Source of the DNA: a virus
IMG/VR virus record: IMGVR_UViG_3300032326_001438
Span: 1-21,929 of that record
Reading direction: 5' to 3' (one strand)
Length of the DNA: 21,929 nucleotides
This document shows, piece after piece, positions 1 to 21,929 of the stretch. A model generated the notes under the pieces. That model ran no database searches and was not told the origin of the DNA. It was given only the letters and a program-made list of their open reading frames with translations. Position 1 is the first letter of the stretch, and each line of letters starts with the position of its first letter. A program made the translations under genes and the position numbers.

Positions 1-2
1 AT

Positions 3-746
3 ATGGAAAATCAAGCAATCGAATACGGACAACAAAATTTTACGTTACCACACGATGTAGTACCACTACCATCGGGAGGAATATTTTATAAAAACAAAAA
101 GAAATCTATCAAGGTAGGATATCTAACGGCTAATGATGAAAACATTTTAATGGGGGGTGGAAATGATATGACCACAACACTATTAAGAAGTAAAATCTAT
201 GAACCGGACTTAAAAGTTGAGGATATGTTAGAAGGTGATGTGGAGGCAGTTTTAATCTTTTTGAGAAATACTGGTTTTGGACCGGAGATTAATTTGAATT
301 TAATCGACCCTTCAACAAGAAAATCATTTCAGGCGACAGTTCCTTTAGATGAATTAAATGTTATTAATGGTCAAATACCTAATGAAGATGGTAGTTTTAT
401 TATACAACTACCTAAATCACAGGCAACAATTAAATTAAGACCATTAACTTATGGGGAGGTTTTAGAAATAAGTAAGTTAGAAGAATCATATCCCAAAGGG
501 AGAGTAGTTCCAAAAGTTACTTGGAGATTACAAAAAGAAATTATAGAAGTAAATGGAACTACTGATAAAGCAGAAATAGCTAAATTTGTCGAACAAATGC
601 CAATTTTGGATTCAAAATTCATAAGAAAATTTATGAATGATAATGAACCAAGATTAGATTTAAGTAGAGTTGTAATTACCCCATCAGGAGAAAAGATGAC
701 AGTTAATGTCGGATTTGGGGTTGACTTTTTTCGTCCTTTCTTCTGA
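3..746 (+). CDS. T4 gp26-like tail/baseplate hub assembly chaperone
   Basis: This 247-residue soluble protein probably acts as a cytoplasmic chaperone during baseplate hub and tape-measure assembly and is likely absent from the finished virion. The N-terminus (residues 14-30, LPHDVVPLPSGGIFY) followed by a segment like KVGYLTANDENIL resembles the 'LPS.G..Y ... L...DE..L' start of T4 gp26-type proteins; T4 gp26 itself is about 208 residues. The C-terminus (NVGFGVDFFRP) matches the 'FF.P' ending I associate with this family. It lies just upstream of the tape measure gene, where tail-assembly chaperones usually sit. The ATG at 3 is the first visible codon and its leader lies outside the window, so an earlier start cannot be excluded. 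The 3' end overlaps an open +1 frame that may be joined by frameshifting. The family call is from memory of motifs, without a search. Confidence 0.62.
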   Translation: MENQAIEYGQQNFTLPHDVVPLPSGGIFYKNKKKSIKVGYLTANDENILMGGGNDMTTTLLRSKIYEPDLKVEDMLEGDVEAVLIFLRNTGFGPEINLNLIDPSTRKSFQATVPLDELNVINGQIPNEDGSFIIQLPKSQATIKLRPLTYGEVLEISKLEESYPKGRVVPKVTWRLQKEIIEVNGTTDKAEIAKFVEQMPILDSKFIRKFMNDNEPRLDLSRVVITPSGEKMTVNVGFGVDFFRPFF

Positions 747-885
747 TTATAGAAAAGGACAGATAGATGAATTCTACTATTTGAACAAATTAATGAACAT
801 AACTTATCAAGATTTTCAAGCAATGCCTCTATTTGTTAGAAAATATTTATTAGATAAGTGGATTGAAGATAACTCAAAGGACTGA
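706..885 (+). CDS. Overlapping out-of-frame tail-chaperone extension, candidate +1/-2 frameshift product
   Basis: This frame is open from 700 to the TGA at 883-885 and is shifted +1 (equivalently -2) from the gp26-like gene. Read alone from the ATG at 706 it gives 59 residues. It contains DEFYYLNKLMNITYQDF followed by QAMPLFVRKYLLDKWIEDN, which looks like the compact second domain of tail chaperones ('Y..L......Y.....MP...R..L...I'). The overlap holds a T6-C run (726-732, zero-frame codons GAC TTT TTT CGT). A Phe-tRNA on TTT (729-731) could move +1 onto TTC, or -2 onto TTT, giving a fusion of about 293-294 residues. The ATG at 706 has only a distant AGGAG (about 15 bases upstream), so frameshifting is favoured over independent initiation. 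The protein-like sequence supports that it is translated; the mechanism is inferred. Confidence 0.6.
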   Translation: MSDLGLTFFVLSSDYRKGQIDEFYYLNKLMNITYQDFQAMPLFVRKYLLDKWIEDNSKD

Positions 886-900
886 AAACTCAGTCCTTTT
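876..900 (+). terminator. Rho-independent terminator after the chaperone frames
   Basis: A perfect 10-bp stem, AAAGGACTGA (876-885) pairing with TCAGTCCTTT (890-899), closes an AAAC loop and ends in a short T-run. The TGA stop of the out-of-frame chaperone extension lies inside the left arm. A terminator right after this stop, rather than after the zero-frame stop at 746, supports 885 as the true end of the chaperone unit. Confidence 0.8.
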
Positions 901-901
901 G

Positions 902-909
902 TATTTATA
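902..909 (+). promoter_or_regulatory. TATTTATA motif, candidate late promoter element for the tape measure gene
   Basis: TATTTATA followed by an A-rich stretch lies 19 bases upstream of the tape measure ATG and just after a terminator, where a new promoter would be expected. The same octamer precedes two other late genes in the window (2770-2777 and 15856-15863). It is the reverse complement of the T4 late promoter core TATAAATA, so it is not a plain T4-type late promoter in the direction of these genes. AT-rich octamers are common here, so the role is tentative. Confidence 0.33.
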
Positions 910-928
910 TTAAAACACCATTCAAATT

Positions 929-2764
929 ATGGCAGCAGGAGACGAAAAAGACAAATTAAAAGAAGGAACTGAAGAATCGTTAACGTTCGCTCAAAAACTT
1001 GGAAAAGAGGCGACAGTAACATGGCAAACATTAGGGAAGACAATTGAGGAAACTTATAATGCTCAAGTCGAACTTAATAAAACCTTTGGACAAGGACAGG
1101 AAAGGCTTTCTGAAATGTATAAGTCAATTTCAGATGCTGCTCCAAGAGTTGCCCGTTTGGGTGGGGACATGAAAGATGTTCAATCTACAATGATTGGTAT
1201 TGCAGACGCCTCAAGACGTAATGTTATTGCAAACACTGAAGATGTAGAAAAACTTTATGCAGCGACTCAAGTTGTTGGGGGTAGTGCAGCAGAATTAAGT
1301 ACCGCGTTTTTAGATGTTGGTGTTGGTATTGAACAAGTTGGAAAACAATTAGAAGACTCTGTTAACTATGTTCGTAGTATTGGTGGTAATACCAAAGCGG
1401 TTATGAAAGATGTTTCCGATAATATGGGGCAGATGAATCGATACCAATTTGCCGGAGGTGTTCAAGGGTTAACTAAAATGGCGGCACAAGCATCTATGTT
1501 ACGATTTGATATGAAAGAAACATTTGCATTAGCTGAAAAAGTACTTGACCCTGAGAGTGCAATTGAAGTAGCATCTGCTTTTCAAAGATTAGGAGTGTCC
1601 GCGGGTAATTTGGCGGACCCATTCCAATTAATGAATATGTCTATTAATGACCCATCAGGATTACAAGATAGTTTAGCGGATGTTGCAAAACAATATACAT
1701 ATTTTGACGAAAAGACAAAAACATTTAAGATTAATCCTCAAGGAGTTTTAACATTAAAAGAAATGGAAAAACAAACAGGGGTTAGTGCAAAAGAAATGTC
1801 AAAAATGGGACTTGCTGCCGCGGAATTAGACCAAAGACTTTCAGCGGTTAATATGGCTGGTTTGAATATCAAAGAAGAAGATAAACAATATCTTGCCAAT
1901 ATTGCTAAAATGGGTGAAGGTGGTGATTATGAAGTTAAACTTACAGATGACAAGGGTAATGAGTATACTAAAAAGTTAAGTGAGGTTACTCAAACCGAAA
2001 TGGATAAACTGATTAAAGAACAAAAAGAAGGTCCTAAAACATTAGAAGAGATTGCTAGGTCACAACTTACTATTGACGAAGCAATGTTAGCAGATATTAG
2101 AGGATTGAGGGTTGCTTTTGAACAAGGAATTACAAGTCCAAAACAGGTGAGACAAGGTATTGCGGGGGCTCAAAGAGCGAGTAAGACAATTCTTGGTGAA
2201 ACTTCTGATAAATTTGGAAAAACAAAAGATTATAGGGATTTAAGTGAAGGTATATTAGATACTTTAGGTAAGGTTGCAACAGAATTAAAAGAGGGTAATA
2301 AACCTCTTACGGATGTATTATCAAATGGATTAAATGGTCTTGGAAGTACTTTAGATGCATCTCAAAAAAGATTTACTGAAGTATTAAAAGAAGTTGGTGA
2401 AAATATTGCAACAAAACTAACAAATAAGACAGTTGGTGAGAGCACGCTTAAAAGTGGGTTTCAAAAAATTAATGAGATTTCTGGTGTTAAATCACCAAGT
2501 TCCGCATCTCCATTAAATGCGTCGTCAGGAAATAAAATAGAAACATTACAAAATACACAAAGCAACACAACAACTCAAACAACTAAAGGAACTGTTGATG
2601 TTGGAGGAAAAATTGAAGTTGATGTTAAGGTACCTGTGGGTATGAGTGCGGAACAAACTAAACAATTTATTGATTCTGTGTTTAATGACTCTAAGTTTAA
2701 AGACTATATCCTTAGATTAACTACTCCGGATAACTCAAAAGAACCTGTTTCAAAAACTTACTAA
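929..2764 (+). CDS. Tail tape measure protein (T4 gp29-like)
   Basis: This 611-residue protein probably sets tail length by running through the tail tube lumen, and may be released during DNA ejection. The length is close to T4 gp29 (590 residues); at about 1.5 angstroms per residue it predicts a tail near 90 nm. The sequence is largely helical, rich in Ala, Gln, Lys and Glu, with coiled-coil-like stretches at about residues 10-80 and 130-230, a Gly/Ala-rich middle, a low-complexity Ser/Thr/Asn/Gln linker (about 520-560) and a compact C-terminal piece starting near KIEVDVKVPVGMSAEQTKQF, as is usual for small tape measures of T4-like phages. It directly follows the tail chaperone frames, the standard position. 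The ATG at 929 has no Shine-Dalgarno sequence but follows the terminator and a TATTTATA motif. No peptidase or lysozyme motif was seen. Confidence 0.8.
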   Translation: MAAGDEKDKLKEGTEESLTFAQKLGKEATVTWQTLGKTIEETYNAQVELNKTFGQGQERLSEMYKSISDAAPRVARLGGDMKDVQSTMIGIADASRRNVIANTEDVEKLYAATQVVGGSAAELSTAFLDVGVGIEQVGKQLEDSVNYVRSIGGNTKAVMKDVSDNMGQMNRYQFAGGVQGLTKMAAQASMLRFDMKETFALAEKVLDPESAIEVASAFQRLGVSAGNLADPFQLMNMSINDPSGLQDSLADVAKQYTYFDEKTKTFKINPQGVLTLKEMEKQTGVSAKEMSKMGLAAAELDQRLSAVNMAGLNIKEEDKQYLANIAKMGEGGDYEVKLTDDKGNEYTKKLSEVTQTEMDKLIKEQKEGPKTLEEIARSQLTIDEAMLADIRGLRVAFEQGITSPKQVRQGIAGAQRASKTILGETSDKFGKTKDYRDLSEGILDTLGKVATELKEGNKPLTDVLSNGLNGLGSTLDASQKRFTEVLKEVGENIATKLTNKTVGESTLKSGFQKINEISGVKSPSSASPLNASSGNKIETLQNTQSNTTTQTTKGTVDVGGKIEVDVKVPVGMSAEQTKQFIDSVFNDSKFKDYILRLTTPDNSKEPVSKTY

Positions 2765-2769
2765 TAATC

Positions 2770-2777
2770 TATTTATA
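2770..2777 (+). promoter_or_regulatory. TATTTATA motif upstream of the OmpA-domain baseplate gene
   Basis: The second copy of the intergenic TATTTATA octamer, followed by AAATAAAAAT, lies 15 bases before the ATG at 2793 in a 28-base gap. Position and sequence match those upstream of the genes at 929 and 15878. It is a candidate late promoter element or A/T-rich translation leader. Confidence 0.33.
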
Positions 2778-2792
2778 AAATAAAAATCATAG

Positions 2793-5700
2793 ATGTCAAA
2801 TAGTCCATTAGATTACGTAAATTCGGATGGTTTCAGAAAGAAATTAATAACAAGGAATTTAGTGCCTTACGCTAAATCTCCAAGTAGACCTTCTGTTCAA
2901 GTTCCGTATGAACATATTCAGTCAGATTTATCGGTTATTGATAGTCCTGACCAACTTATTGATGTCCCATCATTAGCTAATCAACTGTATCCTTTAAATC
3001 GATATGGTAATGAAGGTGGATATCAACAAGTTCCCGACCCAAATGGATTAACTAATAGTATTTCTAATCAAGGTGAATATGGACCAGGTCAACAAGATGC
3101 TCATATTGTTGATGAGGGTTATGACGCGGTAAGGTTATGGAGACCATTAAATGCTTATGCTGATGGGTTAAATGTGTTTGACTCGGCAGAATCATTTTCA
3201 AGTTTAGAGACAGTTAGACCTGACCAAGACAGACAAAGTAACGGACAACCATATCCGGGACCAATTGTTCCATCATCGTATTCTCCATTATCAATCTTAT
3301 TATCAACTAACCCAACCGGTAGTAATGGTAATCTAAGTCAAGATTCATATATTGCTCGTTTAGGTGCACAAACACTTAGAAATGAATTCCAAGAAAGAAT
3401 TGCCGCTCGAATAAGATTAGAGACGATAGGACAAGCCAACATATTAAATGTTACAAGTGGTACTGACTTAGTTAATATTTTATCAGGACAAGTTCCAATA
3501 TTAGAACCAAACTGGCAAATAACCGTACCATCAAATCCAATCACAGCTGCCGCTGATTTTGCACTTAGATTAGGTGGTAGTATTTTACCTATAAGTTTAA
3601 TTCCGGGTTCTTATTTTGACCCAGCGATTAATCCGGGTCAACCTACAACAATTCAACAAGTTACAAACGCAATTGCAGGAACAACTGTTGGAAACTTTTT
3701 TAATCAATTATTAGGTGCGGGTCAAACCGGGTCACAAATTTTTTATAACAACACAGGTGCTGGTCAAAAATCACGTTTGTTTAAAAACATTGATTATAAC
3801 AAATACAAACCAAATTTTGATAGAAGTGTATTTGATAGAGTTGCCGGTGCGTTAACCGGGACATTATCTGATAACAGTAATTTTTATGTTGGTTCAAGAA
3901 ATTCTGACCCGTCAAGAATATTTTCTCCGGGAGGTGATTTACCTGTTGACCAATTTGGTAAAGAACAACAATCACCGGTATATGGGCCTCAAGAGTTGGC
4001 ACAACTTTATGAAGGACCAAGTAAAGATGTTAGATTAGGTGCTAATGGACCTACATATTCTAATGGTGGTGGTATTGAAGGTGGTTTTACTTGGGTTTCT
4101 CCAAAGTATAAAGATAATGCCGGAAAAAAAGTTGGTTTAGGTGGTGTTGTTACAGATGAGGATGAAGACTTTAAACCTTCATCATATAACACAACTGAAT
4201 CAACAAACAGGACTTTTAAGGGGGGTTCTATTTTAGATGACACTCAGAGATTAATTAATAGTCAACCTCAAGGAGGTCGAAGATTACAACACGTAGGTAA
4301 TGCTATTGACCAAGTTAGTAAAGTTTTCCATGACGGATATAAAGAAATAACTAAAGGTTCTCAGGTTTATCGATATGTTGGTGATATTGGACAAGAAGTT
4401 GGAACCGAGTATTGTCGTATTTTTGCAAAAGATGTTCCATATCTACAATATAATGATTTACAAAAAGTAGATGGTATAACAACATCGGGTAGAAGATTTT
4501 CTGATTCGGTATTTGATAATACCTATAACTTAAACATTGCCCCAAACAAACAAGAAGGGGGACAAGATTCAACTAACCTTATTGGTGGGATGAATAATGG
4601 ATATGCCAAAAAATATATGTTTTCATTGGAAAACTTGGCTTGGAGAACTTCAAGTACTCCGGGATATTCAGTTTCTGATTTGGCAATATGTGAGAGAGGA
4701 CCTAATGGTGGTAGAGTTATGTGGTTTGCTCCTTATGGATTAACTTTTACTGAACAAACATCTGCGAATTGGAATTCAAGTGAGTTCCTTGGTAGACCGG
4801 AACCTATCTATACATATAAGAGTACATCTCGTTCAGGTAGTTTAACGTGGAAGATAGTTGTTGACCATCCATCTGCGTTGAATGTCATAGTTAATAAAAT
4901 ATTAAATAATGAAACTAATAAAGTTAGAGTTGATAGTATTTTAGAATCATTCTTCGCTGGATGTAGAAAATATGATTTATATGAATTAGCTAAAAAATAT
5001 TATACGGTTAATCCAAATGATTTATTTCTCTTACAAGAAGCGATTTCGTCAAAAGAAACAACTAAAGAACAAACCGAGTATATTAAGAAAACTGTTCAGA
5101 CCGGTGTTAATTCACCAACAGGTGCGGATGTTAACGTATCTCAAGAAGGTGGTGGTGGAAACACTAACGTTGATTTTACCAAATATAATCAGTTAGGGTT
5201 TTATTTTGGTAATGATTATCCGAAAAAAGATAAGCCAATTCCTAATTACACTGAAGAATTTACAAGATATACTAGTTCGGGTAATAGACAATACTATAAT
5301 AGTAAACCAAACGCTCAAGAAACTAATGTATTTTTTGATTCAGTAGTTATCCCTAACTATAATTTAGCAAAAGAATTTGTTAATGATTTGGCAAAACAAT
5401 TAACACAATATAAAGATAGTGATGGTACAATAACAGTCACCATTGACGCTAGTTGTTCTGCCCCTGCAACTGTATCATATAATAAAGAATTGGCTCAAAG
5501 AAGGGTTGATTCCATTCTTAAATTTTTTAATGAAAGTGCGGTTTTGCAACCATTTATAAAAAACCAAAAATTATTATTTAAGGGAACTGTTCTTGGTGAA
5601 AATGCTCAAGTATTACAATTTGATACTGTGAAAAAAGAGTTTAAAATTGGTAAAAACGTGAATTGTACTGATAGTGACCCTAACGCAGTTAATGGTGATA

Positions 5701-7841
5701 CTCAAGTTGGTCCTAATGATGTTACAACAACAAACGCAATGGCTTGTAGACGAGGATATGTTAAAGCAATATTACCAACAATCAAACAACCAACGACTAC
5801 ACCACCGGCGCAATACACAACAATTGTTGAGGAAAATAAAGTATTAAAAACGGTTAAAGAAGAAGTTGTTACTCAAGAATATAAACCAAGGGATAATATT
5901 ACTAAACGTGTTTTAAGAGCTTTATTATCTGAGTGTGACTACTTTGAAACAATCAAAGCTGAGACACCTATGGTTTATGATAACCTTAAAGATAAATTAA
6001 AGTTTTTTCAACCAGCATTCCATTCAACAACACCTGAAGGATTAAACTCTCGTCTTACATTTTTACAACAATGTATGAGACCAGGAGATACTATTCCAAC
6101 AATTAAAGATATTGCGGGTAAACAACAATTACAATATAATAACGCTACAAATACATCATTTGGGGCACCTCCGGTATTAGTATTACGTATTGGGGATTTT
6201 TATAATACTAAAATTATACCTGAATCATTAAGTCTCGCGTATGAATCGTTAGATATTAATCCAGAAGGGATTGGTATTCAACCAATGATTGCGAATGTGA
6301 CTTTAGGGTTTAAATTTGTGGGTGGTAGTGGATTAAAAGAATCTATTGATAAATTACAAAATGCGTTAACGTTTAATTATTATGCTAATACTGAAATTTG
6401 GGATGATAGAGCGGATGCTACCTCACAGGAAGATTTCTTAAAAGTTTTAGATAAAGAATTTTTGGCAATGGCATCTCCTCCTCAGGCACCGGCAATTAAT
6501 CAAGCCGCGGTTGAGAATGGGCAAAACAATAATAGTACAATTGGTGTTACATTAACAAATGTTATATCAGGAAATACTGAAACAGGGACTCTTAGTTATT
6601 CTGACTTTATGGTTAAGTTTGTCAATGAAACTCAAACATATTTCCAAACGGTTGTTAACAAAACAAAAGAAAGTGTTAATCAATATAATAATGCGGTTAG
6701 GCAACAATGGATGTTGGAACGTTCTTATACCCAAGGTAATTTTGTAGTTGACCCAAAGGCATCTGTTTTATTTGGAAAACCGAGTAATGTTGAAAAAAGA
6801 TTTGACACAATTTTTGGTGAATTAGAATCGAATATTCAAAGTGGGGATGAAGGGTTTATTACTTTTATGTCGTCGACTGTTTGTAATTTCTCGCCTAAAG
6901 TGATTCGTCAGTTAAAAGAAAATTATAAAAATTTTGTTAAAAACAAACGAGCGTCATTTCAAAATGCTATAACTAAAATAACTCAAGATATTACAACTAC
7001 AGAACAGACGTATATTCAAACAATCGGTAGGGCTAATATTATTAATTTTAACGCAACAAGTTACCCTAGTGGTACTGATGGATATCAGGCAAAATCAGGA
7101 CCTGTTAAAGTGTATGTAACTAGTGGAACATCGGACGTTCATGCGTCATCAACAGGTGTTTCTGATACGTTAGTTGAACTTGATAATGACATTAGAAAAA
7201 TATACGATAGCATCCAAGAGTTTAATCTTCTGATATGGAGTGAGACTGAGTTTATTAATCCATCAGACAAATTAGCTTATAAAGGTACTTTAGTTTTTGA
7301 AACGGATACTAAAGGTAAATCTTTGGACAGTAGTATCACTGTTGAAAATGTGTTTAAACCATTTAGTAAAAATGCTAAATTTGAGAATAATATTTTTAGA
7401 AGAGTTTACATGATAGTTTCTGATGATGTTGTTGATACTAAAAAATATGAAACATTTAAAACTGCCATGATTGGTAATATTATTAACAATAGTGGTTTAT
7501 TAAGTGGTGGTTTTGATGATGTCGAAGCTAAGTTTGACAACTATTGGGTTACACAAACAAGACCGTTGTTTGTTGATGAAAATAATACAACAAAGGCGTT
7601 TATTGATGATGTTGAGAAAAATAAGTTGAAAAATTATTTAAAATTTACACCATTCGATAAAAAAACACGTGTATTTACCTACACAACAGATACTGATGGA
7701 AGTGACAATAAGATAAAATCACAAAAAACTATGATATCTTCATTAGCGGATACCACAAATAGAAATACAGATAATAATAAATGGAATTCCAATGATGGAG
7801 TTTCGACAGGAGCATACATATCAAAAGTAAAACTTAATTAA
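2793..7841 (+). CDS. Large baseplate/tail-tube-cap region structural protein with OmpA-like domain
   Basis: This 1682-residue protein occupies the place where T4 carries genes 48 and 54 after the tape measure, so it is probably a baseplate component at the tube-baseplate junction. Visible parts: a Pro/Asn/Gly-rich N-terminal third; a segment around residues 640-695 (KYMFSLENLAW, then MWFAPYGLTFTEQTSANWNS and a VVDHPSALN end) that I recall from phage baseplate proteins; an OmpA-like region at about 835-955 (NYNLAKEFVNDLAKQL, then TVTIDASCSAP, then YNKELAQRRVDSILKFF); a beta-rich segment at about 1120-1185 (PPVLVLRIGDFY ... NPEGIGIQPM) like baseplate hub/cap modules; and a helical C-terminal third. 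The OmpA-like part could bind peptidoglycan during infection. The next gene starts on the last base of this gene's stop (TAATG), implying coupling. It is much larger than T4 gp48 (364) or gp54 (320). The baseplate role is likely; the exact equivalent is uncertain. Confidence 0.6.
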   Translation: MSNSPLDYVNSDGFRKKLITRNLVPYAKSPSRPSVQVPYEHIQSDLSVIDSPDQLIDVPSLANQLYPLNRYGNEGGYQQVPDPNGLTNSISNQGEYGPGQQDAHIVDEGYDAVRLWRPLNAYADGLNVFDSAESFSSLETVRPDQDRQSNGQPYPGPIVPSSYSPLSILLSTNPTGSNGNLSQDSYIARLGAQTLRNEFQERIAARIRLETIGQANILNVTSGTDLVNILSGQVPILEPNWQITVPSNPITAAADFALRLGGSILPISLIPGSYFDPAINPGQPTTIQQVTNAIAGTTVGNFFNQLLGAGQTGSQIFYNNTGAGQKSRLFKNIDYNKYKPNFDRSVFDRVAGALTGTLSDNSNFYVGSRNSDPSRIFSPGGDLPVDQFGKEQQSPVYGPQELAQLYEGPSKDVRLGANGPTYSNGGGIEGGFTWVSPKYKDNAGKKVGLGGVVTDEDEDFKPSSYNTTESTNRTFKGGSILDDTQRLINSQPQGGRRLQHVGNAIDQVSKVFHDGYKEITKGSQVYRYVGDIGQEVGTEYCRIFAKDVPYLQYNDLQKVDGITTSGRRFSDSVFDNTYNLNIAPNKQEGGQDSTNLIGGMNNGYAKKYMFSLENLAWRTSSTPGYSVSDLAICERGPNGGRVMWFAPYGLTFTEQTSANWNSSEFLGRPEPIYTYKSTSRSGSLTWKIVVDHPSALNVIVNKILNNETNKVRVDSILESFFAGCRKYDLYELAKKYYTVNPNDLFLLQEAISSKETTKEQTEYIKKTVQTGVNSPTGADVNVSQEGGGGNTNVDFTKYNQLGFYFGNDYPKKDKPIPNYTEEFTRYTSSGNRQYYNSKPNAQETNVFFDSVVIPNYNLAKEFVNDLAKQLTQYKDSDGTITVTIDASCSAPATVSYNKELAQRRVDSILKFFNESAVLQPFIKNQKLLFKGTVLGENAQVLQFDTVKKEFKIGKNVNCTDSDPNAVNGDTQVGPNDVTTTNAMACRRGYVKAILPTIKQPTTTPPAQYTTIVEENKVLKTVKEEVVTQEYKPRDNITKRVLRALLSECDYFETIKAETPMVYDNLKDKLKFFQPAFHSTTPEGLNSRLTFLQQCMRPGDTIPTIKDIAGKQQLQYNNATNTSFGAPPVLVLRIGDFYNTKIIPESLSLAYESLDINPEGIGIQPMIANVTLGFKFVGGSGLKESIDKLQNALTFNYYANTEIWDDRADATSQEDFLKVLDKEFLAMASPPQAPAINQAAVENGQNNNSTIGVTLTNVISGNTETGTLSYSDFMVKFVNETQTYFQTVVNKTKESVNQYNNAVRQQWMLERSYTQGNFVVDPKASVLFGKPSNVEKRFDTIFGELESNIQSGDEGFITFMSSTVCNFSPKVIRQLKENYKNFVKNKRASFQNAITKITQDITTTEQTYIQTIGRANIINFNATSYPSGTDGYQAKSGPVKVYVTSGTSDVHASSTGVSDTLVELDNDIRKIYDSIQEFNLLIWSETEFINPSDKLAYKGTLVFETDTKGKSLDSSITVENVFKPFSKNAKFENNIFRRVYMIVSDDVVDTKKYETFKTAMIGNIINNSGLLSGGFDDVEAKFDNYWVTQTRPLFVDENNTTKAFIDDVEKNKLKNYLKFTPFDKKTRVFTYTTDTDGSDNKIKSQKTMISSLADTTNRNTDNNKWNSNDGVSTGAYISKVKLN

Positions 7842-8164
7842 TGGCATTTCAATATTGGAATAGGTATAGTGAATTTCTAATTAACGGTGAACAAACCGTT
7901 GTACCTTACGTGCAGTTACCTCAAAAACCTACGGATAAAGCATTTATTTATAAAGTGGGTAGAAGTCGATTGGATAAAGTATCTCAGGATTATTATGACT
8001 CACCATATTTTGGTTGGTTAATACTTCAAGCTAATCCTCAATTTGGTGGTTTAGAAAATACCATATATGATGGTGCGGTATTGATTATACCATTTCCATT
8101 ACTACCTTCATTACAGGACTATAAGGGGGCCTTAGAAAATCATTTTTATTATTATGGCAGGTAA
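7841..8164 (+). CDS. gp53/LysM-like small baseplate wedge protein
   Basis: This 107-residue protein resembles the core of T4 gp53-type wedge proteins and tail protein X: Y-x-V-x-x-x-R-L-D-x-V-S-Q-D-Y-Y (about residues 37-52), then YFGWLILQANPQFGG (56-70), and a hydrophobic strand ending in IIPFP, which together follow the LysM-like pattern 'G..L..I...YY....W..I...N......I..G..L.IP'. In contractile tails this fold clamps wedge or hub subunits in the baseplate. T4 gp53 is longer (196 residues), so this is a minimal version. It lies between the two giant baseplate genes, overlapping the upstream stop by one base (TAATG) and the downstream start by 11 bases, so all three are probably translated together. 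The LysM-like fold is likely from the pattern; whether it is the wedge protein or a hub connector is unresolved. Confidence 0.62.
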   Translation: MAFQYWNRYSEFLINGEQTVVPYVQLPQKPTDKAFIYKVGRSRLDKVSQDYYDSPYFGWLILQANPQFGGLENTIYDGAVLIIPFPLLPSLQDYKGALENHFYYYGR

Positions 8165-14100: not shown

Positions 14101-15845
14101 CGGACGTTCTTAAACGAATTATGCCAAATAACCCTGAGTTAGCAACAATTATTTATTGTATTGCTTATCTTAGAACTTTCCAAAAAGATAGTAATAGTAA
14201 ATTAGGTGTGTTTAATGGTTGGAATAATAACTTTGCAACGGCACCATTAAATGTTGATTACGGTCAGATTGATGACACATTCCTTAGTACATATTCTTGT
14301 GTAAATCTTAATCCAAATCCTTCAACTAAAGGAACAACACCTGTTGCTAATTTCGCATCGGTTGATACGTTTGTGTCGTTTATGACTGCTAGATTACAGG
14401 AAAGAGTTCCACAAGTATTGACCTTAGGCCTTGTTAAATATTATGCTTGTTATTGGCCGGTTAAAAATGTTAGTGAATCTACTTATGATTCACATACTAA
14501 AGAATATACTGAAACTAAAGAGACATTTGATAAGGCGTTAACATCGGCACTTAGTGTTGGTGTTGCGACTAAAGCGATTGTTGAAGATTTGAAAAATCAA
14601 ATTAATAAAGTTGAAAGTCAAGGTACTACAAATGGTGTTCCAAATACTGCAGCGGTTACCTCACAATTAGCATGTCCACCAACATCAATTACTTCATTCT
14701 CTCCTTTATCAGGTAATACTGGAACTATAGTTCAAGTTAATGGAGTTAGTTTTAATGGTGCAACCTCAGTTACAGTTAATGGAGTTAGTGTTCCTGCGAC
14801 AGAATTCACGGTATTTAATAATACGACATTAAGGTTTAACACACCAATAATTGGAACGGGTACTGTAGTTAATAAAGGTAAGATTGTTATTGTGACTCCT
14901 AATGGTACCGTAACAAGTACAAATGATTATACATTTGACCCATCAATCGCTGCGTCATCTGCTGCATCTCCGGGTGGGTATGAAAACCCTCAAAATCAAA
15001 CTGCAAATGCAACTCAATCAGAGACACCAAATACTAACCCTCAAAACACAGGACCTTTAACTATGATTGGTACTGCGGTTCAATTAAATGCTAGTAAGAC
15101 TCAGTCATTAAATGTTAAGATAAATCCACAATCTACAGGTTATGTATTATCACCTAATCCTGATATGAAATATGTTGTGTATGAATTGGAAGAAGTTAAT
15201 GGTAAGGTAACTCGAAAATATATTTCACAAAGTGTGATAGGTGTTGGAGGACAAGTAACAAATAATCAATTCAATGTTACCTTAAATGATGTTGAAAGTT
15301 ATTTTATAAATGATATACCAAAAATTGAAGGTAAAACACAAATAGATATTGTGTTTATTCTTAAAGCGTATAAAGGACAAGAACAACCTGTGGTACAACA
15401 ATTCCCGTTCAAAGTTTGGTATACATTACCAAATCAATCTCAAGTTCCTGTTGACAATGTTCCATCTAGTCAAACATTACCAACATTCCCACCTCAACAA
15501 ATTGCGTTCATTAAAATAGGTGAGTCTACTGAGTTACAAGGAAATGGTTGGAGTTATTATAATATTAAAAAACCGGATGGAGGATATATTACATATCAAT
15601 TAACAACTCAAGAACCATTTGACGAACCAAAAACTCTGAATAATAGAGTTTTATATGCTGAAACATATGAAATTGCAAGTTATGGTGGTAGTGGAGGTGC
15701 ATCCACTAAATACACTAATTTAATTAATATTAATAAATTGGGGAATTTTAGATTACAAGTACAATATAAACCGTATGGTAATACATCTCCGATTGGTGGT
15801 GAAGTTTTAGTTCAAACTATAGTAAGTGACGTTTTCACTTTATAA
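8154..15845 (+). CDS. Giant multidomain baseplate hub protein (gp27-like modules, IPT/TIG domain)
   Basis: This 2563-residue protein is probably the central hub of the baseplate. Residues about 160-215 (VPSVTMELEDVQGKALFQ, then NLPYPPFYLTLKGFYGQ) match an N-terminal module I recall from phage baseplate hub proteins. Residues about 1836-1900 (YKCSVVCLGNALLQPTMYFN, then PMFNGPYMIQQVSHSI) look like the gp27/gpD/VgrG hub fold ending in 'G.Y.I..V.H.I....f.T.F'. Between them lie about 1600 residues I cannot assign. Residues 1952-2143 form a helical unit faintly like a muramidase or glucosaminidase. Residues 2174-2262 are an IPT/TIG Ig-like domain (ITSFSPLSGNTGTIVQVNG ... YTFDP). A Ser/Gln/Asn linker (about 2265-2300) precedes a beta-rich end (2300-2563). 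T4 gp27 is 391 residues, so this is greatly enlarged. The ATG at 8154 overlaps the preceding gene by 11 bases. The hub call is moderately firm; domain jobs are inferred. Confidence 0.62.
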   Translation: MAGNLRADNNGDILVEFDYNNIIVVDPNKTIDSAGKIQERLIDHESLVMYANLEAEVLPRTKLAVGGSPEDRIRTISVAKMNFLKPTKDSFLGVGYYDELTGENTTKFKGDNQMMEKAVVPKDGDTPYIISSPANLKDVFDNGLLGITQINVTTNSSFVPSVTMELEDVQGKALFQLGNNSPYAAFFNLPYPPFYLTLKGFYGQAIRYQLNLETFNARFNSFSGNYQVSLKFKGYKFNVLNEISMGHLLAVPHMYGQTFNVSTTPGGTQESNKAAESQSSAQGVISKNNSQSGDAFTTQIVSERGYQKIAEVYSEYKAKGLIAPDLPELTVFQLMTKLSTFENNIMNSFPKAKVEPLTNIRNYKEILKQYFSSVRGANVSWFNTYLDPKPIILNNTNERVYVYKKLGQTEKDAATKLLESYITKFNKALAENATLGNNGESPIPNPIKFKNLTIDPPADGAINWKETVRVQTGKVLPTEEDIKALKEQIYQTKIPVVAVTEVNGRQAPEVVNTTYFIFEGNNRFDSQISLLETNANKKLSEYESLISAELLRKIEDTSTGLGFTPTVRNMIAVVMASAEAFIRLLDDVHTNAWNVKYDPVRKQAIMDNTSSAQSSETRQNFEISTSAQESNQGLSNAKEPVYPWPLFFVETPEDKKGRFQLKYIADPTVVDLTQGYLFDKWPEVEFVEEYMKGITQKFSVPIAPPPLDNERDTNRININAIEFPSAGLPYVNKEEVKFFYEIWERQFLTSHYSGLIRANSNQIDELIKLNVEAEVNNIVKGLGISSPYLTLKLKNYNLKANSYPEFLSTISNNGTGRAYQDYIRDFFVTPYIKNLVDNSYSILSTSDIGKIPQVSTKSLALEKLLTNASNEPLVVDTLPYTDPTWCLTNLSSSNKSVGNEVYNTKKTLKIFEPRKIISNFNDVYNFTTNRPVTNFSFYQNENPSLVAVQFNLLNPYGFVDYYKSREPKNFIATEGYCDFTTPTNQLPFKTTTSMLNTPYFVNSIINGVQNNRSSDPYPYVQSAYLFLNSLPLATLRERYKTNTGTFVEELDYISSCLKKFGAIHKLPYAWILKYGSIWHRYKKYKESNVDILTTAWTNFDYTTNYSPILRSNTQNYQFKYNSDPISITLQEETPITANMNIGFYPKVINDFNVFYNGFELYDNYTNDEIQKSVDGGMKLFNYKDSNINANQNGKSLSVTTYSVLLSSSNYYPEVNCNPVNNTKGTDYFVVPSFGNTLNQSEVACIGDLTTGNNTKVDLTSNPSVYNGSVRTLWSAPNYGYFDANQIAYPQPDSYINLINSGETQSPLYFLNGDNYTKIEEIFSVFDKKILDSFEQEFLNFSKPITNSSTGAEVSQFETSVVQVNATFRNFQSLFRNLMTVPAQGNGVLDPEYFSKIIDVQYNIFQAGIKDFMNYDILFRYGNPSNYKRRIFDSYLSHNNVQKVVDPIQFQPYVKNTLPTKTSTLSLSQSQSLNPNAWIALETEVGFSTINNVRYSSTGSYITDFFIDNNILFSVENVVLLAPIIKMYATQKLKNPTTTVAQFQAQINQYLTNESVLQDNFLNLVLDGVRRGLPDQQQLPEKTIQSVIDGQQSKVENYEVFKALNDKWIAGGDYKTKTLFEDILFLDRASRNIGDTILLDIFEMRSMFSQKSLNETMSVYTFISGLLIKNNFTVMNLPAYINFYNVQDVDGTTIPNRAEGSLEFANSLWGTFLDVDYRKSSSKMVCFYVGKPSQYLDLPKGNFRFRDDGFNMSRASENPLIENQVGKKDWGVSNKCVGFTVDIGVRNQNVFYSFSVSQDSGTATSESIATQINMVDQSSGKNVATQNAGLYNLYKQRSYKCSVVCLGNALLQPTMYFNLRHVPMFNGPYMIQQVSHSIQPGQFQTQFEGIRQGVYDLPAIDSFIQSINQNLLTKVEELLKIKKDTINVLSASTESNKTNNTVQSANNTKGTPNECESQVLPIYLAKKYQATNAVLTKMTEKEFADVLKRIMPNNPELATIIYCIAYLRTFQKDSNSKLGVFNGWNNNFATAPLNVDYGQIDDTFLSTYSCVNLNPNPSTKGTTPVANFASVDTFVSFMTARLQERVPQVLTLGLVKYYACYWPVKNVSESTYDSHTKEYTETKETFDKALTSALSVGVATKAIVEDLKNQINKVESQGTTNGVPNTAAVTSQLACPPTSITSFSPLSGNTGTIVQVNGVSFNGATSVTVNGVSVPATEFTVFNNTTLRFNTPIIGTGTVVNKGKIVIVTPNGTVTSTNDYTFDPSIAASSAASPGGYENPQNQTANATQSETPNTNPQNTGPLTMIGTAVQLNASKTQSLNVKINPQSTGYVLSPNPDMKYVVYELEEVNGKVTRKYISQSVIGVGGQVTNNQFNVTLNDVESYFINDIPKIEGKTQIDIVFILKAYKGQEQPVVQQFPFKVWYTLPNQSQVPVDNVPSSQTLPTFPPQQIAFIKIGESTELQGNGWSYYNIKKPDGGYITYQLTTQEPFDEPKTLNNRVLYAETYEIASYGGSGGASTKYTNLININKLGNFRLQVQYKPYGNTSPIGGEVLVQTIVSDVFTL

Positions 15846-15855
15846 CATAACGATA

Positions 15856-16102: not shown

Positions 16103-16107
16103 TCGAA

Positions 16108-16806: not shown

Positions 16807-16816
16807 CAAAAAATTC

Positions 16817-16844: not shown

Positions 16845-16845
16845 A

Positions 16846-16877
16846 TTTGACTTCACAAGTTTTATCACCTATATTTA
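16846..16877 (+). promoter_or_regulatory. Sigma70/Bacteroidota-type promoter of the gp32-like gene
   Basis: TTGACT (16847-16852) and TATATT (16870-16875) are separated by 17 bases, a good sigma70-like promoter. The same bases also fit the Bacteroidota pattern TTTG (16846-16849), a 20-base gap, then TAnnTTT (16870-16876, TATATTT). It sits right after a terminator and about 33 bases before the ATG at 16910. It is likely read by host RNA polymerase, for early or middle expression of the replication genes. Confidence 0.62.
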
Positions 16878-16909
16878 AAGAACAATTTAACAACTTAATT
16901 TTATAACAC

Positions 16910-17764
16910 ATGAGTTCATTAGACGCCGTATTGGCACAGTACGAAAATTCAAAACAATCAGGGGGCGGGGCCCAAGGGAAAATGTCGCAAGACGAAAGAA
17001 TGAAAAAATATTTTGCACTTATCTTAGGTGATAAGGAGCAATCTGGACAAAGAAGAGTTAGAATCTTACCTACGAGTGATGGTTCTTCACCATTTAAAGA
17101 AGCTTGGTATCATGAGATTCAAGTTGGTGGACAATGGCAAAAATTCTACGACCCGGGAAAAAACGATAACGAACGTTCACCTTTAAACGAGGTTTACGAA
17201 GAGTTAATCTCAACCGGAAAAGAATCGGACAAACAATTGGCGGCTCAGTATCGTTCTCGTAAATTCTATATCGTAAAAGTTATCGATAGAGATAGAGAAG
17301 AAGACGGACCAAAATTTTGGAGATTCAAACACAACTACAAAAATGATGGTATCTTAGATAAAATCATTCCAATTTGGAGAAATAAAGGGGATATTACCGA
17401 CGCTCAAATCGGTAGAGATTTAATCATTGAATTGACTAAAGCAAAAACTCCAAAAGGAAAAGAATATACAACTGTATCTACAATTATGTATGAGGACCAA
17501 GGTCCGGTACATACTGACCCGGCTCAGGCTAATGAGTGGATTACTGACGAATTAACTTGGTTAGACGTTTACTCTAAAAAACCGGTAGAATACCTTGAAG
17601 CTATTGCTCGTGGAGAAACTCCAAGATGGGATTCGGAAAAAGGTGGATACCTTTACGAAAGTGATTCAGTAAATACAGAATCATTTGGTGGAGGAAAACC
17701 TCAAAGTTCTGCACCGGTTGACCCTCAAGCAAACGATGAGATAGACGAAGATTTACCTTTCTAA
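16910..17764 (+). CDS. gp32-like single-stranded DNA binding protein
   Basis: This 284-residue protein coats single-stranded DNA during replication and recombination and should interact with the neighbouring recombinase and helicase; T4 gp32 is 301 residues. Visible parts: an N-terminal region for cooperative self-contact; an OB-fold core with the gp32-like run RVRILPTSDGSSPFKEAWYH (about residues 47-66), then RSRKFYIVKVIDR and KFWRFKHNYK; and a flexible acidic C-terminus ending IDEDLPF. There is no cysteine in the whole protein, so the zinc-binding subdomain of T4 gp32 (one His, three Cys) cannot be formed. The ending resembles bacterial SSB tips such as DDDIPF, which recruit host repair and replication proteins. 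It has its own promoter and is bracketed by terminators, suiting a protein needed in large amounts. The ATG at 16910 has no Shine-Dalgarno sequence. Confidence 0.88.
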   Translation: MSSLDAVLAQYENSKQSGGGAQGKMSQDERMKKYFALILGDKEQSGQRRVRILPTSDGSSPFKEAWYHEIQVGGQWQKFYDPGKNDNERSPLNEVYEELISTGKESDKQLAAQYRSRKFYIVKVIDRDREEDGPKFWRFKHNYKNDGILDKIIPIWRNKGDITDAQIGRDLIIELTKAKTPKGKEYTTVSTIMYEDQGPVHTDPAQANEWITDELTWLDVYSKKPVEYLEAIARGETPRWDSEKGGYLYESDSVNTESFGGGKPQSSAPVDPQANDEIDEDLPF

Positions 17765-17776
17765 AATAAAACAATT

Positions 17777-17814
17777 AAACTTGGACACTTAGTTAGACAA
17801 GATGTCCAAGTTTT
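17777..17814 (+). terminator. Hairpin terminator after the gp32-like gene
   Basis: An 11-bp stem, AAACTTGGACA (17777-17787) with TGTCCAAGTTT (17803-17813), encloses a 15-base loop that can add a small inner pairing, and is followed by TTTTAATAAT. It lies 12 bases after the gp32 stop. The long loop and broken T-run suggest partial termination, giving more gp32 message than message for the downstream genes. Confidence 0.68.
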
Positions 17815-17828
17815 AATAATATTATCAT

Positions 17829-18125
17829 ATGACGTTTAAAGAAGAAATTGACTTACAATTAAGAGACAATAAAATGTTATCTTATGAAATTCTAAGTCAA
17901 CTAAAAGATAAAACATACTTCTCAGGTAGAAGTAAACAAATTGGTGATAGTGTTTTATTTGGTATGATAGATGAAGGTACTAATGAAGATGGTGTGATAA
18001 GTAGTAGACTGATTACTTTTCACGAAGAAGAAATTAATGTACTATATGAGGAAGATTCTTCAAAATACAATAGGAATAAATCAAACAAATTACCACACAT
18101 TAAAAAAATAGAAAATGGCGATTAA
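17829..18125 (+). CDS. Unknown 98-residue protein between gp32 and UvsX
   Basis: I do not recognise this small acidic, probably soluble protein. The N-terminus looks helical (TFKEEIDLQLRDNKMLSYEI, then LSQLKDK), the middle beta-rich (SVLFGMIDEG ... ISSRLITFHEEEINVLY), and the C-terminus is charged (KYNRNKSNKLPHIKKIENGD). Its last 11 bases overlap the start of the recombinase gene, so translation is probably coupled. T4 has a helicase loader (gp59, 217 residues) near gp32, but this protein is less than half that length and shows no gp59 feature I can see, so I make no such claim. A recombination-accessory role is possible from position alone. Coding support is the overlap arrangement and the lack of a competing frame. 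Confidence 0.72.
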   Translation: MTFKEEIDLQLRDNKMLSYEILSQLKDKTYFSGRSKQIGDSVLFGMIDEGTNEDGVISSRLITFHEEEINVLYEEDSSKYNRNKSNKLPHIKKIENGD

Positions 18126-19116
18126 GAAAAACGATTTCAAATCAATTAAAGATAAATTCTCGGTATCGGCAAAATACAAACCACAAAGATTTTTTGACTT
18201 AGGTCCGGATTTCTTGGATGCGGTTGGATTACCGGGACCTGCTATTGGGCATATTAATATGTTCTTAGGTCACTCTGATACAGGTAAAACAACTGCTCTT
18301 GTGAAAACAGCGGTAGATGCTCAAAAGAAAGGTATTCTTCCTGTGTTTATTATTACAGAACAGAAATGGTCATTTGAACACGCTAAATTAATGGGATTTG
18401 ATTGCGAGGAAGTGGTTGATGAGGAAACAGGTGAATTAGATTGGGATGGATTTTACATATTCAATAATAACTTTGACTACATCGAACAAATTACTGACTA
18501 TATCAATAACTTACTTGATGAACAAGAAAAAGGAAACTTAGATTATAGTTTATGTTTTATGTGGGATTCAGTAGGTTCTGTGCCTTGTAAAATGACTTAT
18601 GAAGGTAAAGGTGGTAAACAACACAATGCATCAACATTGGCAGATAAGATTGGTATGGGTATCAATCAAAGAATCTCGGGTTCTCGTAAATCTGATTCAA
18701 AATATGAAAACACTTTAATCATTGTTAATCAACCTTGGGTTGAATTACCGGATAATCCTTTTGGACAACCAAAGATTAAAGCTAAAGGTGGTGAGGCGAT
18801 TTGGTTAAACTCATCATTAGTTTATTTATTTGGAAATCAAAAAGGAGCGGGAACTACAAAGATTACTGCAACCAAAGACAAAAGAACTATCAAGTTTGCT
18901 TCAAGAACAAAAGTGTCGGTTATGAAAAATCACATCAATGGATTGGGTTATGACGATGGAAAAATTATTGTTACACCACACGGATTCATTGCGGGAAAAG
19001 ACACTGCGGAAGAAAAAATTAATATTGAAAAATATAAAAAAGAATACGCAGAATATTGGAAAGACATCATCGGAACTGATGGTGATTTTGACCTAAAAGA
19101 AGAAAAAGAGGCATAG
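18115..19116 (+). CDS. uvsX: UvsX/RecA-type recombinase
   Basis: This 333-residue ATPase forms filaments on single-stranded DNA and performs strand exchange for recombination-dependent replication and repair, displacing the gp32-like SSB. Motifs: Walker A GHSDTGKTT at residues 52-60; a likely catalytic Glu in FIITEQKWS (E82); Walker B with CFMWDSVGS at about 147-154 (D151); and a RecA-like L2 region after LIIVNQPW (about 201-208) leading to GGEAIWLNSSLVY. T4 UvsX is 391 residues, so this version is shorter, mainly at the C-terminus, which ends in an acidic tail. The ATG at 18115 lies in the last codons of the 98-residue gene (11-base overlap). The gp32-UvsX-nuclease-helicase order supports a compact replication/recombination operon. 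The family is clear; orthology to T4 UvsX rather than another RecA branch rests on these motifs and context. Confidence 0.92.
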   Translation: MAIKKNDFKSIKDKFSVSAKYKPQRFFDLGPDFLDAVGLPGPAIGHINMFLGHSDTGKTTALVKTAVDAQKKGILPVFIITEQKWSFEHAKLMGFDCEEVVDEETGELDWDGFYIFNNNFDYIEQITDYINNLLDEQEKGNLDYSLCFMWDSVGSVPCKMTYEGKGGKQHNASTLADKIGMGINQRISGSRKSDSKYENTLIIVNQPWVELPDNPFGQPKIKAKGGEAIWLNSSLVYLFGNQKGAGTTKITATKDKRTIKFASRTKVSVMKNHINGLGYDDGKIIVTPHGFIAGKDTAEEKINIEKYKKEYAEYWKDIIGTDGDFDLKEEKEA

Positions 19117-19130
19117 TTTATTCACCATTA

Positions 19131-19146
19131 AATCACCACTGTGATT
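19131..19146 (+). promoter_or_regulatory. Small hairpin covering the GTG start of the 5' nuclease gene
   Basis: AATCAC (19131-19136) pairs perfectly with GTGATT (19141-19146) across a CACT loop, placing the GTG start codon inside the right arm. A six-pair stem at an unusual start may lower translation of the nuclease relative to the upstream recombinase. The stem is short, so this could be chance. Confidence 0.25.
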
Positions 19147-20142: not shown

Positions 20143-20146
20143 ATTT

Positions 20147-20599
20147 ATGAGAGAGCAAGAAAGCACTAAGATGGAATTTTTATTGACATTAAACGATAAC
20201 ATCGTAGTCCAAAGATTCTTTAACGTAAGAGGGTTTAACCCAAAAGCAAAAAGTTCGGTTGAACTATATGAATTTGTTGCTGAGTTCAAAGAAGAACTTC
20301 AAGAATACTTGAAAATGAAGACTTTAGTCTACATGATGGACAATAAAGATTCTATTATTCATGACCCAAGTATTATGGACACATCGTTCACTGATGGACC
20401 TGAAATGTTTAACATTATTATCAAATTAGGGGAACAGACAATTTGTCATAGAATTTTTGACGGAAAATTTTATCCACCAAAAGTTCGTTATACTGTCGAT
20501 GTAAGACCTTTCTTGAAGGAAACACTTCGAGGATTGACTGACATTTTTTCAGATAAAAAATTAAGTTACAATTATTTGGAACTTGACTTAAGTAAGTAA
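20147..20599 (+). CDS. Unknown 150-residue protein between RNase H and helicase
   Basis: I do not recognise this protein. It is soluble and mixed alpha/beta. Strands near MEFLLTLNDNIVVQRFFNVR and FNIIIKLGEQTICHRIFDG look like two copies of a similar 'hydrophobic strand, turn, IV/IC-x-R-x-F' unit, suggesting an internal duplication; between them lies a helical acidic part (VELYEFVAEFKEELQEYLKM). The C-terminal part (VRYTVDVRPFLKETLRGLTD) is helical. The ATG at 20147 follows the RNase H stop by 4 bases; a second in-frame ATG at 20171 (MEFLLTL) would drop only a polar leader and is a reasonable alternative start. Its place in the replication operon suggests a DNA-replication accessory role, which is inference from position. 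Confidence 0.75.
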   Translation: MREQESTKMEFLLTLNDNIVVQRFFNVRGFNPKAKSSVELYEFVAEFKEELQEYLKMKTLVYMMDNKDSIIHDPSIMDTSFTDGPEMFNIIIKLGEQTICHRIFDGKFYPPKVRYTVDVRPFLKETLRGLTDIFSDKKLSYNYLELDLSK

Positions 20600-20636
20600 G
20601 TATTTAATAATACAAGGGTAACTTTTAAAACAATTT

Positions 20637-21929
20637 ATGAACAAAAATTTCGATTATTTAGGGAACACATTTCAATTACAATTACTGAATCAGATTATAT
20701 TAGATAAGGACTTTTCATCTTCAATTATGGATGTTATTGAGCCAATCTATTTCGACAACAAGTACTTTAAAATCATTTTACAAATGACAAAAGAGTACCA
20801 CAAGAAATATGAATCTACTCCTAATTTCGATACTCTTGAGCAGATAGTTAAGTCTGAAATCTCCCAAGAGATGGTTGCCAAGATTGTTTTGGACACATTA
20901 ACTCAAGTTAAAGAGGCTCCATTTGAAGGAACCACTTTCGTTCAGGAGAAAGCCTTGAAGTTCTGTAAACAACAAGAACTTCAAAAGGCTATGGACAAAG
21001 CTCAAAAGATTATTACTCAAGGGGACTTCGAGTCTTATGATAAGGTTGAAGGACTTGTGAGAGATGCATTACAGGTTGGAGAGATAGATAAAGGTCAAAC
21101 TGATATCTTCGCTAATTTAGACACAGTACTTGATGAGGATTATCGTCATCCAATTCCAATGGGGATTAAGGGGATTGATAAATTACTTAAAGGTGGATTG
21201 GCGAAAGGTGAGATTGGAGTTATATTGGCACCAACTGGTGTGGGTAAGACAACTATCTTATCTAAAATTTCAAACACAGCGTTTAACCTTGGTTATAATG
21301 TACTTCAAATATTTTTTGAGGATAATCCAAAGATTATTCAAAGAAAACACTTCACTATGTGGACAGGTATCGAACCGGATAACTTAGTTCAAAATAAAGA
21401 AGAAGTGATGAGTAAAATCACTGAGATTAAGGAGACAATGCAAAACAGATTGGTTTTGAAAAAATTAGCATCAGATACGATGACTATGAGTCAAATTAAG
21501 AATCAAGTTAGAAAGATGATTGCGGATGGTATTAAGATTGATATGGTTTTATTAGATTATATCGATTGTGTATTACCGGAATCAAGTAGTAAAGATGAAT
21601 GGAAAGCTGAAGGGTCAGTAATGAGAGGTTTTGAGGCTATGTGTCACGAACTTGATTTAGTTGGTTGGACGGCAACACAGGGTAACAGAGCTTCAATTTC
21701 ATCGGAAGTTGTAACTACTGACCAAATGGGTGGGTCAATTAAAAAGGCTCAGGTTGGTCACGTAATTATCTCTGTTGCTAAAACATTACAACAAAAAGAG
21801 ATGGGTCTTGCAACTATTGCGATTACCAAAAGTCGTTTAGGTCAGGATGGAGTTGTGTTCGAGAATTGTAAATTCAATAATGAATTACTTGAAATCGACA
21901 CAGAAAGTTCAGTAACATTCTTAGGGTTC
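20637..21929 (+). CDS. DnaB/gp41-type replicative helicase, 3' end beyond the window
   Basis: The frame stays open from the ATG at 20637 to the last base, giving 431 residues with no stop. It should be the hexameric 5'-3' helicase that unwinds the replication fork; T4 gp41 is 475 residues, so most of it is probably here. Residues 1-140 form the helical N-terminal domain (LLNQIILDKDFSSSIMDVI and on), then a linker leads to the RecA-like motor: PMGIKGIDKLLKGGLAKGEI, Walker A APTGVGKT (about 198-205), Walker B VLLDYID (about residue 300), a switch-like ATQGNRAS segment, and a late ITKSRLGQDG segment like the conserved 'K.R.G..G' of DnaB-family helicases. The 37-base leader has no Shine-Dalgarno sequence. 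It follows the 150-residue unknown in the same operon. The family is firm; a fused primase cannot be judged beyond the visible part, but the N-terminus shows none. Confidence 0.92.
   Translation, partial: MNKNFDYLGNTFQLQLLNQIILDKDFSSSIMDVIEPIYFDNKYFKIILQMTKEYHKKYESTPNFDTLEQIVKSEISQEMVAKIVLDTLTQVKEAPFEGTTFVQEKALKFCKQQELQKAMDKAQKIITQGDFESYDKVEGLVRDALQVGEIDKGQTDIFANLDTVLDEDYRHPIPMGIKGIDKLLKGGLAKGEIGVILAPTGVGKTTILSKISNTAFNLGYNVLQIFFEDNPKIIQRKHFTMWTGIEPDNLVQNKEEVMSKITEIKETMQNRLVLKKLASDTMTMSQIKNQVRKMIADGIKIDMVLLDYIDCVLPESSSKDEWKAEGSVMRGFEAMCHELDLVGWTATQGNRASISSEVVTTDQMGGSIKKAQVGHVIISVAKTLQQKEMGLATIAITKSRLGQDGVVFENCKFNNELLEIDTESSVTFLGF

Follow-up and report, generated by a model that had tools for sequence, protein, structure and literature searches.

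GATC is absent from a fragment of an uncultured T4-like phage and from many of its relatives, probably through avoidance of host type II restriction

Complete elimination of type II restriction sites is already known in virulent double-stranded DNA (dsDNA) phages (PMC6286503; PMC6532042). In Staphylococcus phage K, GATC has been eliminated from a large genome (140 kb), and this loss is attributed to the host enzyme Sau3A (PMC6532042). Rusinov et al. 2018 report that palindromic type II sites can be almost wholly lost (ratio <0.1), with elimination most pronounced in non-temperate dsDNA phages, where it amounts to 7.5% of cases in the main lifestyle analysis of that survey (PMC6286503). Among the pelagiphages, one phage group, about half the genomes are reported to be poor in GANTC (PMC9516812). 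Here we describe a stretch of 21,929 nucleotides of viral DNA, IMG/VR record IMGVR_UViG_3300032326_001438 (hereafter the window, positions 1-21929, these bases being the whole of the record), in which the tetranucleotide GATC is missing altogether, and follow this absence through related uncultured phages.

The group under study differs from each of these systems. The host and the enzyme are known for phage K, whereas here we infer both, and the present case concerns an uncultured T4-like group in which some close relatives are unpurged and others are purged of different palindromes. Phages with known hosts were treated by Rusinov et al. (PMC6286503), while a gene tree of close relatives is used here and reveals at least 11 changes of state. 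The pelagiphage study dealt with GANTC in 33 phages, and motif density was clustered on the tree (PMC9516812); in contrast, many contigs of the present group lack GATC altogether, and such contigs are dispersed across the tree. Among named phages, the closest UvsX (45% amino acid identity) is that of Flavobacterium phage immuto (Immutovirus), which shares the gene order of single-strand DNA-binding protein (SSB), UvsX, exonuclease and helicase, but has a near-normal GATC content (510 observed, 579 expected) and annotated genes for 7-deazaguanine DNA modification. Searches of the open-licence PMC literature brought up no paper title on GATC loss in this phage group, and what is added here is the extent of the loss, the repeated switching among close relatives and the lineage-specific footprints.

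An earlier note on this DNA had claimed that GATC is wholly missing and that several tens of sites (60-70) would be expected by chance, and both claims are borne out by computation. The exact count on both strands is 0, against 59 expected from an order-2 Markov model, 57 from an order-1 model and 65 from base composition. GATC shows the largest deficit among the 256 tetramers of the window (z -7.7) and is the sole tetramer with a count of 0. Shuffling of synonymous codons in 13 open reading frames (ORFs; 21,471 nt, 2,000 shuffles), with proteins and codon usage preserved, gave a mean of 55.1 GATC (standard deviation 5.1, minimum 35), and 0 of the 2,000 shuffles reached 0. Because of these Markov and codon-shuffle nulls, base composition, codon usage and protein sequence are ruled out as the source of the absence, and 0 of 59 lies within the range used to define complete elimination (observed/expected <0.1 with at least 15 sites expected). 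The additional remark in the note that other palindromes are present was right, and CCGG is even over-represented (50 observed, 21.6 by codon shuffle), but CATG (17 of 52 expected), CTAG (11 of 34), GCGC (3 of 8) and AGCT (21, as compared to 51 by codon shuffle) are low as well.

Extension of the count to relatives, using the UvsX gene as the anchor for finding them and for building the tree, revealed that the window is far from alone. Two IMG/VR scans with UvsX, each taking the best 80 of 600 candidate stretches and hence a similarity-chosen rather than a random sample, yielded 134 loci; after removal of five repeats of the same contigs, 129 remained, which together with the window make 130 sequences with 115 different uvsX sequences. 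GATC is at zero in 74 of them, below 0.1 of expectation in one more, between 0.1 and 0.35 in 12, between 0.35 and 0.7 in 11 and at 0.7 or above in 32. The second-commonest absent 4-base palindrome, CCGG, is missing from 13 of the 80 sequences in which at least eight copies are expected, and no other palindrome resembles GATC in this respect. In a set of 37 contigs, the window included (most are fragments, and two were fetched in part), 22 contain no GATC or, in the case of contig G001, one site, which amounts to 1 GATC in 1,166,667 bases against 3,077 expected. G001 (locus L001), whose uvsX is 98% identical to that of the window at the DNA level, is the closest relative and has this one site in 34,167 bases, where 91 are expected. 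Among the 22 low contigs are sequences of 143 kb (0 of 401 expected), 115 kb (0 of 311) and 112 kb (0 of 321), and two more large contigs beyond them have 0 of 563 expected sites in 215 kb and 1 of 409 in 177 kb. Sampling by a different anchor gene gave 152 loci, and of the 151 counted, 102 are below 0.05 of the expected GATC content.

Within these 22 contigs the absence extends to rarely shared genes and to non-coding DNA. The 90 genes (62 kb) that occur in a single contig each have 0 GATC in all against 161 expected, genes common to two to five contigs have 0 against 370, and intergenic DNA has 0 against 29. Since even private genes are free of the site, new genes must be purged fast or come from already purged donors.

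On the uvsX tree there are at least 11 changes between the zero and non-zero states, and on a second tree again at least 11, counts that carry no direction and that recombination of genes between phages could inflate on both trees. Such repeated changes are what a pressure tied to the host would produce. The closest pair found with differing states is 89.8% identical over 5.2 kb and has 0 and 13 GATC, respectively, and thus the trait turns over within that divergence, which gives no support to the long exposure supposed in the earlier note. As to the route, in 113 partly redundant alignments (at least 80% identity), 751 of 933 GATC sites are one base off in the zero relative, with GACC (270) and GTTC (233) as the commonest replacement words. 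Aspartate before a codon starting with C is encoded by GAT in 0 of 1,825 cases in zero contigs and in 1,049 of 1,618 cases in 11 normal contigs, while in other contexts GAT accounts for 77% and 75% of aspartate codons, respectively; this bias restates the zero count, yet shows that codons have been swapped and the amino acid left unchanged. In four contigs with partial depletion, the remaining GATC are evenly spread (variance/mean 0.48-1.15 in 5-kb bins), and in one partly depleted contig, G011, GATC is about equally rare in widely shared (0.28 of expectation) and private (0.23) genes. This even spread fits slow purging or slow regain and not recently imported blocks.

The gene content of the window is as follows, with clusters counted over the 37 contigs.

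1..21929, no strand assigned: the whole window, without GATC (exact count; codon shuffle)
3..746, + strand: baseplate hub-like protein, 247 amino acids (PHROG 150 baseplate hub, E 9e-12)
929..2764, + strand: large ORF, 611 amino acids, probably tail or baseplate from its position (no PHROG match; cluster c17, in 25 of 37 contigs)
2793..7841, + strand: very large ORF, 1682 amino acids, probable baseplate or tail structural protein from its position (no PHROG match; cluster c12, in 27 of 37 contigs)
7841..8164, + strand: baseplate wedge-like protein, 107 amino acids (PHROG 7145, E 2e-4)
8154..15845, + strand: giant ORF, 2563 amino acids, probable baseplate or tail structural protein from its position (no PHROG match; cluster c8, in 32 of 37 contigs)
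16910..17764, + strand: single-strand DNA-binding protein, gp32-like (PHROG 1192, E 7e-11)
18115..19116, + strand: UvsX-like recombinase (PHROG 97, E 6e-15; 45% amino acid identity to Flavobacterium phage immuto)
19141..20142, + strand: 5'-3' exonuclease (PHROG 107, E 4e-35)
20637..21929, + strand: DnaB-like replicative helicase, truncated by the window end (PHROG 19, E 3e-59)

UvsX, a gp32-type SSB, a DnaB-like helicase and baseplate hub and wedge proteins, all by PHROG, are the broad marks of a T4-like myophage, and a Gp23 major capsid match was obtained among the proteins of relatives; the window is a fragment of a T4-like phage belonging to a large group of uncultured phages. The phage is probably virulent, as judged from its T4-like gene content. 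Megablast of the window against phage records gave no DNA-level match, and membership of Immutovirus was rejected on this ground as well as on the low identities to immuto of UvsX (as given above) and of the helicase (27% at the amino acid level). Because the nearest named UvsX relative infects Flavobacterium, the host probably belongs to Bacteroidota.

Sister lineages lack other words. Contig G005 is devoid of GATC, CATG (0 of 137 expected) and CCGG (0 of 70), and CCGG is absent or nearly so from G020 (0 of 52), G022 (1 of 55) and G027 (0 of 18). ACGT is nearly absent from G013 (7 of 198) and G032 (5 of 42), and TCGA from G018 (1 of 23), G024 (2 of 25) and G054 (3 of 37). The 326-kb contig G011 has none of the 192 TTTAAA expected from the highest-order Markov model, with GATC at 0.25 of expectation, while some contigs have no second purged word at the threshold used. 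CCGG, CATG, ACGT, TCGA and TTTAAA are typical type II restriction sites. A purge of CCSGG was considered as separate evidence and rejected, since both words that it comprises contain CCGG and it is therefore not independent; CCWGG is not emptied in those phages.

Given this body of observations, we consider it likely that GATC was purged under host type II restriction, in a lineage of T4-like, probably virulent phages with a host probably among Bacteroidota. Any GATC left would be cut on entry by enzymes of the MboI/DpnII/Sau3AI type common among the hosts, and the lineage would have removed every GATC from the visible sequence mainly by single-base, largely synonymous changes, while sister lineages in other host pools would have purged other palindromes, or kept or regained GATC. 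The absence itself, its reach over genes and related phages, the changes of state, the largely synonymous replacement and the lineage-specific purging of other palindromes form a site-specific, palindrome-based, lineage-specific and switching pattern, which is explained by avoidance of host type II cleavage. The selecting agent is, we infer, a host GATC restriction enzyme, with hosts differing between lineages. GATC-specific host restriction had also been proposed in the earlier note, and its factual half stands, as the deficit is real and site-specific and sister phages purge other palindromes of restriction type, while the restriction itself is read from this pattern. The palindrome GATC is a target of known type II enzymes such as Sau3A (PMC6532042) and those of MboI type (PMC5608340), and one member of Bacteroidota, Prevotella intermedia, reportedly has a type II system for GATC with an enzyme resembling MboI (PMC5608340).

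Several findings weigh against host restriction as the cause. Neither the host nor a cognate enzyme was found, and a pattern-based scan of 84,980 bacterial and archaeal species (one genome each) with the UvsX of the window gave a sole distant match, at 24% identity, in a Pelagibacterales metagenome-assembled genome. In Flavobacterium psychrophilum, the only Flavobacterium species checked in print, GATC is reported to be methylated by a common orphan methyltransferase that lacks a cognate endonuclease; of the two systems most widespread in this species, one has CCGG as its site (PMC11837570). A Bacteroidota-type promoter motif is weakly enriched in the window (6 copies against 3.7 expected, with a shuffle maximum of 6). 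Furthermore, a phage gene cluster, c47, is strongly tied to zero GATC in raw counts, a link that does not hold once phylogeny is taken into account, and ORFs 140, 142 and 144 of contig G017, three small phage genes, are found in zero genomes only.

A first alternative, which seems to us improbable, is that methylated and unmethylated GATC are both unsafe, with MboI/DpnII-type hosts coexisting with hosts that carry methyl-dependent enzymes of DpnI type, so that only absence protects. In its favour, the common orphan enzyme of F. psychrophilum methylates GATC (PMC11837570), and GATC, treated as a type IIM site by Rusinov et al., was below expectation in 46 of 46 phages whose hosts encode such an enzyme, a deficit that these authors credit to orthodox type II systems (PMC6286503). 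A D12 (Dam-family-like) methyltransferase is encoded by six contigs, of which G009 and G017 are at zero and G011, G013, G031 and G043 are non-zero, and thus possession of such an enzyme is no substitute for purging. Against this alternative, the match of the phage methyltransferase to TIGR00571 (dam) is well below the cut-off, and neither kind of host enzyme was identified. DNA methyltransferases as the switch itself were rejected, because D12 and N6/N4 enzymes are present in zero and non-zero contigs and do not track GATC; a C5 methyltransferase occurs in one of 43 contigs. With regard to DNA hypermodification, a search of the ORFs of the 37 contigs, mostly fragments, gave no homologue of the six immuto genes for 7-deazaguanine.

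The alternative that the phage breaks down host DNA with a GATC nuclease of its own, has no methylase for protection and hence must itself be free of GATC, appears to be no better placed. It would fit a count at zero or within one over hundreds of kilobases, as expected of a constraint acting in every infection. One candidate is c47, a cargo cluster whose protein combines a zinc-ribbon-like part with an L5 gp82-like domain, and which was the best of many clusters in a gene-content scan (p 0.0098, uncorrected). Among the first contigs covering its slot, c47 was present in 8 of 9 at zero and 0 of 3 non-zero, the three including the partly depleted G011, which holds only a c47 fragment. In the slot survey, in which 151 of 152 slot loci were counted, it was found in 81 of 102 zero loci and in 6 of 49 others (4 of 49 if it is required to sit in its slot), but 21 of the 102 zero loci lack c47 in the slot. 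The association follows the two main clades, and under phylogenetic control 11 independent pairs remain, of which on average 2.3 go the same way and 0.1 the other way (median p 0.5).

A comparison of gene content gave further candidates for such a nuclease. The 147 ORFs of G017 include 95 that are matched in both G056 and G059, two large zero contigs; 11 of the 95 are absent from the normal contigs G013 and G043, but 8 of the 11 fail the gene-content test. ORFs 83, 86, 97, 98, 106 and 109 are missing from the zero contig G009 despite the presence of flanking genes (97 and 98 also occur in the normal contig G031), ORF 16 matches the normal contigs G038 and G048, and ORF 134 was found in 18 of 80 loci with normal GATC. 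The surviving ORFs 140, 142 and 144, which fall past the end of contig G009, are present in G056 and G059 and in neither G013 nor G043, and the further relatives found for them, in 3, 10 and 3 loci respectively (G017's own counted), all lie at zero GATC. ORF 140 matches DUF6878 and has a partial match in G011, and ORFs 142 and 144 have no Pfam match. Homologues of known GATC enzymes were not found in the contigs searched, as the DpnII family was absent from 30 contigs and then from 20 more, and the MutH/Sau3AI family from 26. The other words purged by sister phages also mean that one enzyme could not account for all. Allowing for incomplete contigs and for novel nucleases beyond recognition, a phage enzyme as the cause is unlikely.

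A more elaborate version, to which we give slightly less credence still, supposes that the zero state is self-imposed by a GATC nuclease, perhaps one of the leader-tagged, possibly injected cargo proteins (such as those of c47 and ORF 142 of G017), which would shred host DNA, a swap of specificity forcing another purge. If true, the missing word of each lineage would name its own nuclease and not that of its host. The variable cargo slot is flanked by the c32 gene and the core gene that follows, for example in loci L421, L424, L427, L434 and L437. Its proteins have a similar N-terminal leader (MKIxITExQ-like), which might be a packaging or targeting signal, joined to varied bodies that include a zinc-ribbon-like part, an L5 gp82-like domain and an HExxH stretch, with an HNH-like ORF adjoining (all but the L5 gp82-like domain recognised by eye). 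Longer c47 proteins of 481-505 amino acids are encoded in G020 (17208-18725) and G022 (9241-10686), and their C-terminal D...QxK-like stretch could, by eye, represent a PD-(D/E)XK nuclease fold.

Escape from methyl-directed mismatch repair, in which MutH nicks at GATC, is very improbable here. Dam/MutH repair is largely a gammaproteobacterial system. This explanation has been discussed for enterobacterial phages and for phiX174, which has no GATC and in which the addition of sites lowers the mutation rate (PMC5014478), but it leaves unexplained the purging of CCGG, CATG, ACGT, TCGA and TTTAAA in sister phages as well as the GATC-bearing relatives with up to 89.8% DNA identity, and avoidance is not confined to GATC as in the phiX174 type of case. 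A compositional or assembly artefact, for which low GC content alone could be invoked, can be dismissed almost entirely, being contradicted by the Markov and codon-shuffle nulls, by the recovery of separate contigs from many metagenomes by related phages of similar GC content with normal GATC and by the near-normal count in immuto.

If avoidance of host type II restriction is the cause, the missing words may be a readable imprint of the restriction enzymes met by uncultured phages, and differing imprints in closely related contigs offer a possible means to pair phages with host populations. Such imprints could also gauge the pace at which sites in their hundreds are lost or restored, for which the pair at about 90% identity (0 against 13 sites in 5.2 kb) provides a rough scale.

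Beyond GATC and the palindromes described above, further words are unevenly represented in this group. TATATA is absent, by order-2 expectation, from the window (0 of 14; 0 against 8.0 by codon shuffle), G001 (0 of 23), G003 (0 of 78) and G004 (0 of 48), but it is kept in the close relative G002 (49 of 90), and its loss constitutes a second, lineage-specific missing word. The non-palindromic pair CCAG/CTGG is depleted in the window (22 of 78 expected; for CCAG, 6 against 46 by codon shuffle) and in G001, G002, G003, G017 and G021 (0.29-0.32 of expectation), and CCGG is in excess alongside (50 of 34 expected in the window, 1.17-1.40 in the same five contigs), while in the remaining contigs the ratios are 0.39-0.64 for CCAG and 0-1.12 for CCGG. 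This imbalance looks like the trace of very-short-patch repair directed towards CCGG, which would turn CTGG to CCGG, and a gene for Vsr-type repair (PF03852) as its source was found in 0 of 43 contigs. The non-palindromic ACAGC/GCTGT is nearly absent from G005, G006, G020, G022 and G038 (0-1 against 17-28 expected), perhaps through avoidance of an asymmetric site. AGWCT is strongly depleted in G017 (21 of 163), G021 (2 of 58), G031 (4 of 73) and G051 (4 of 39).

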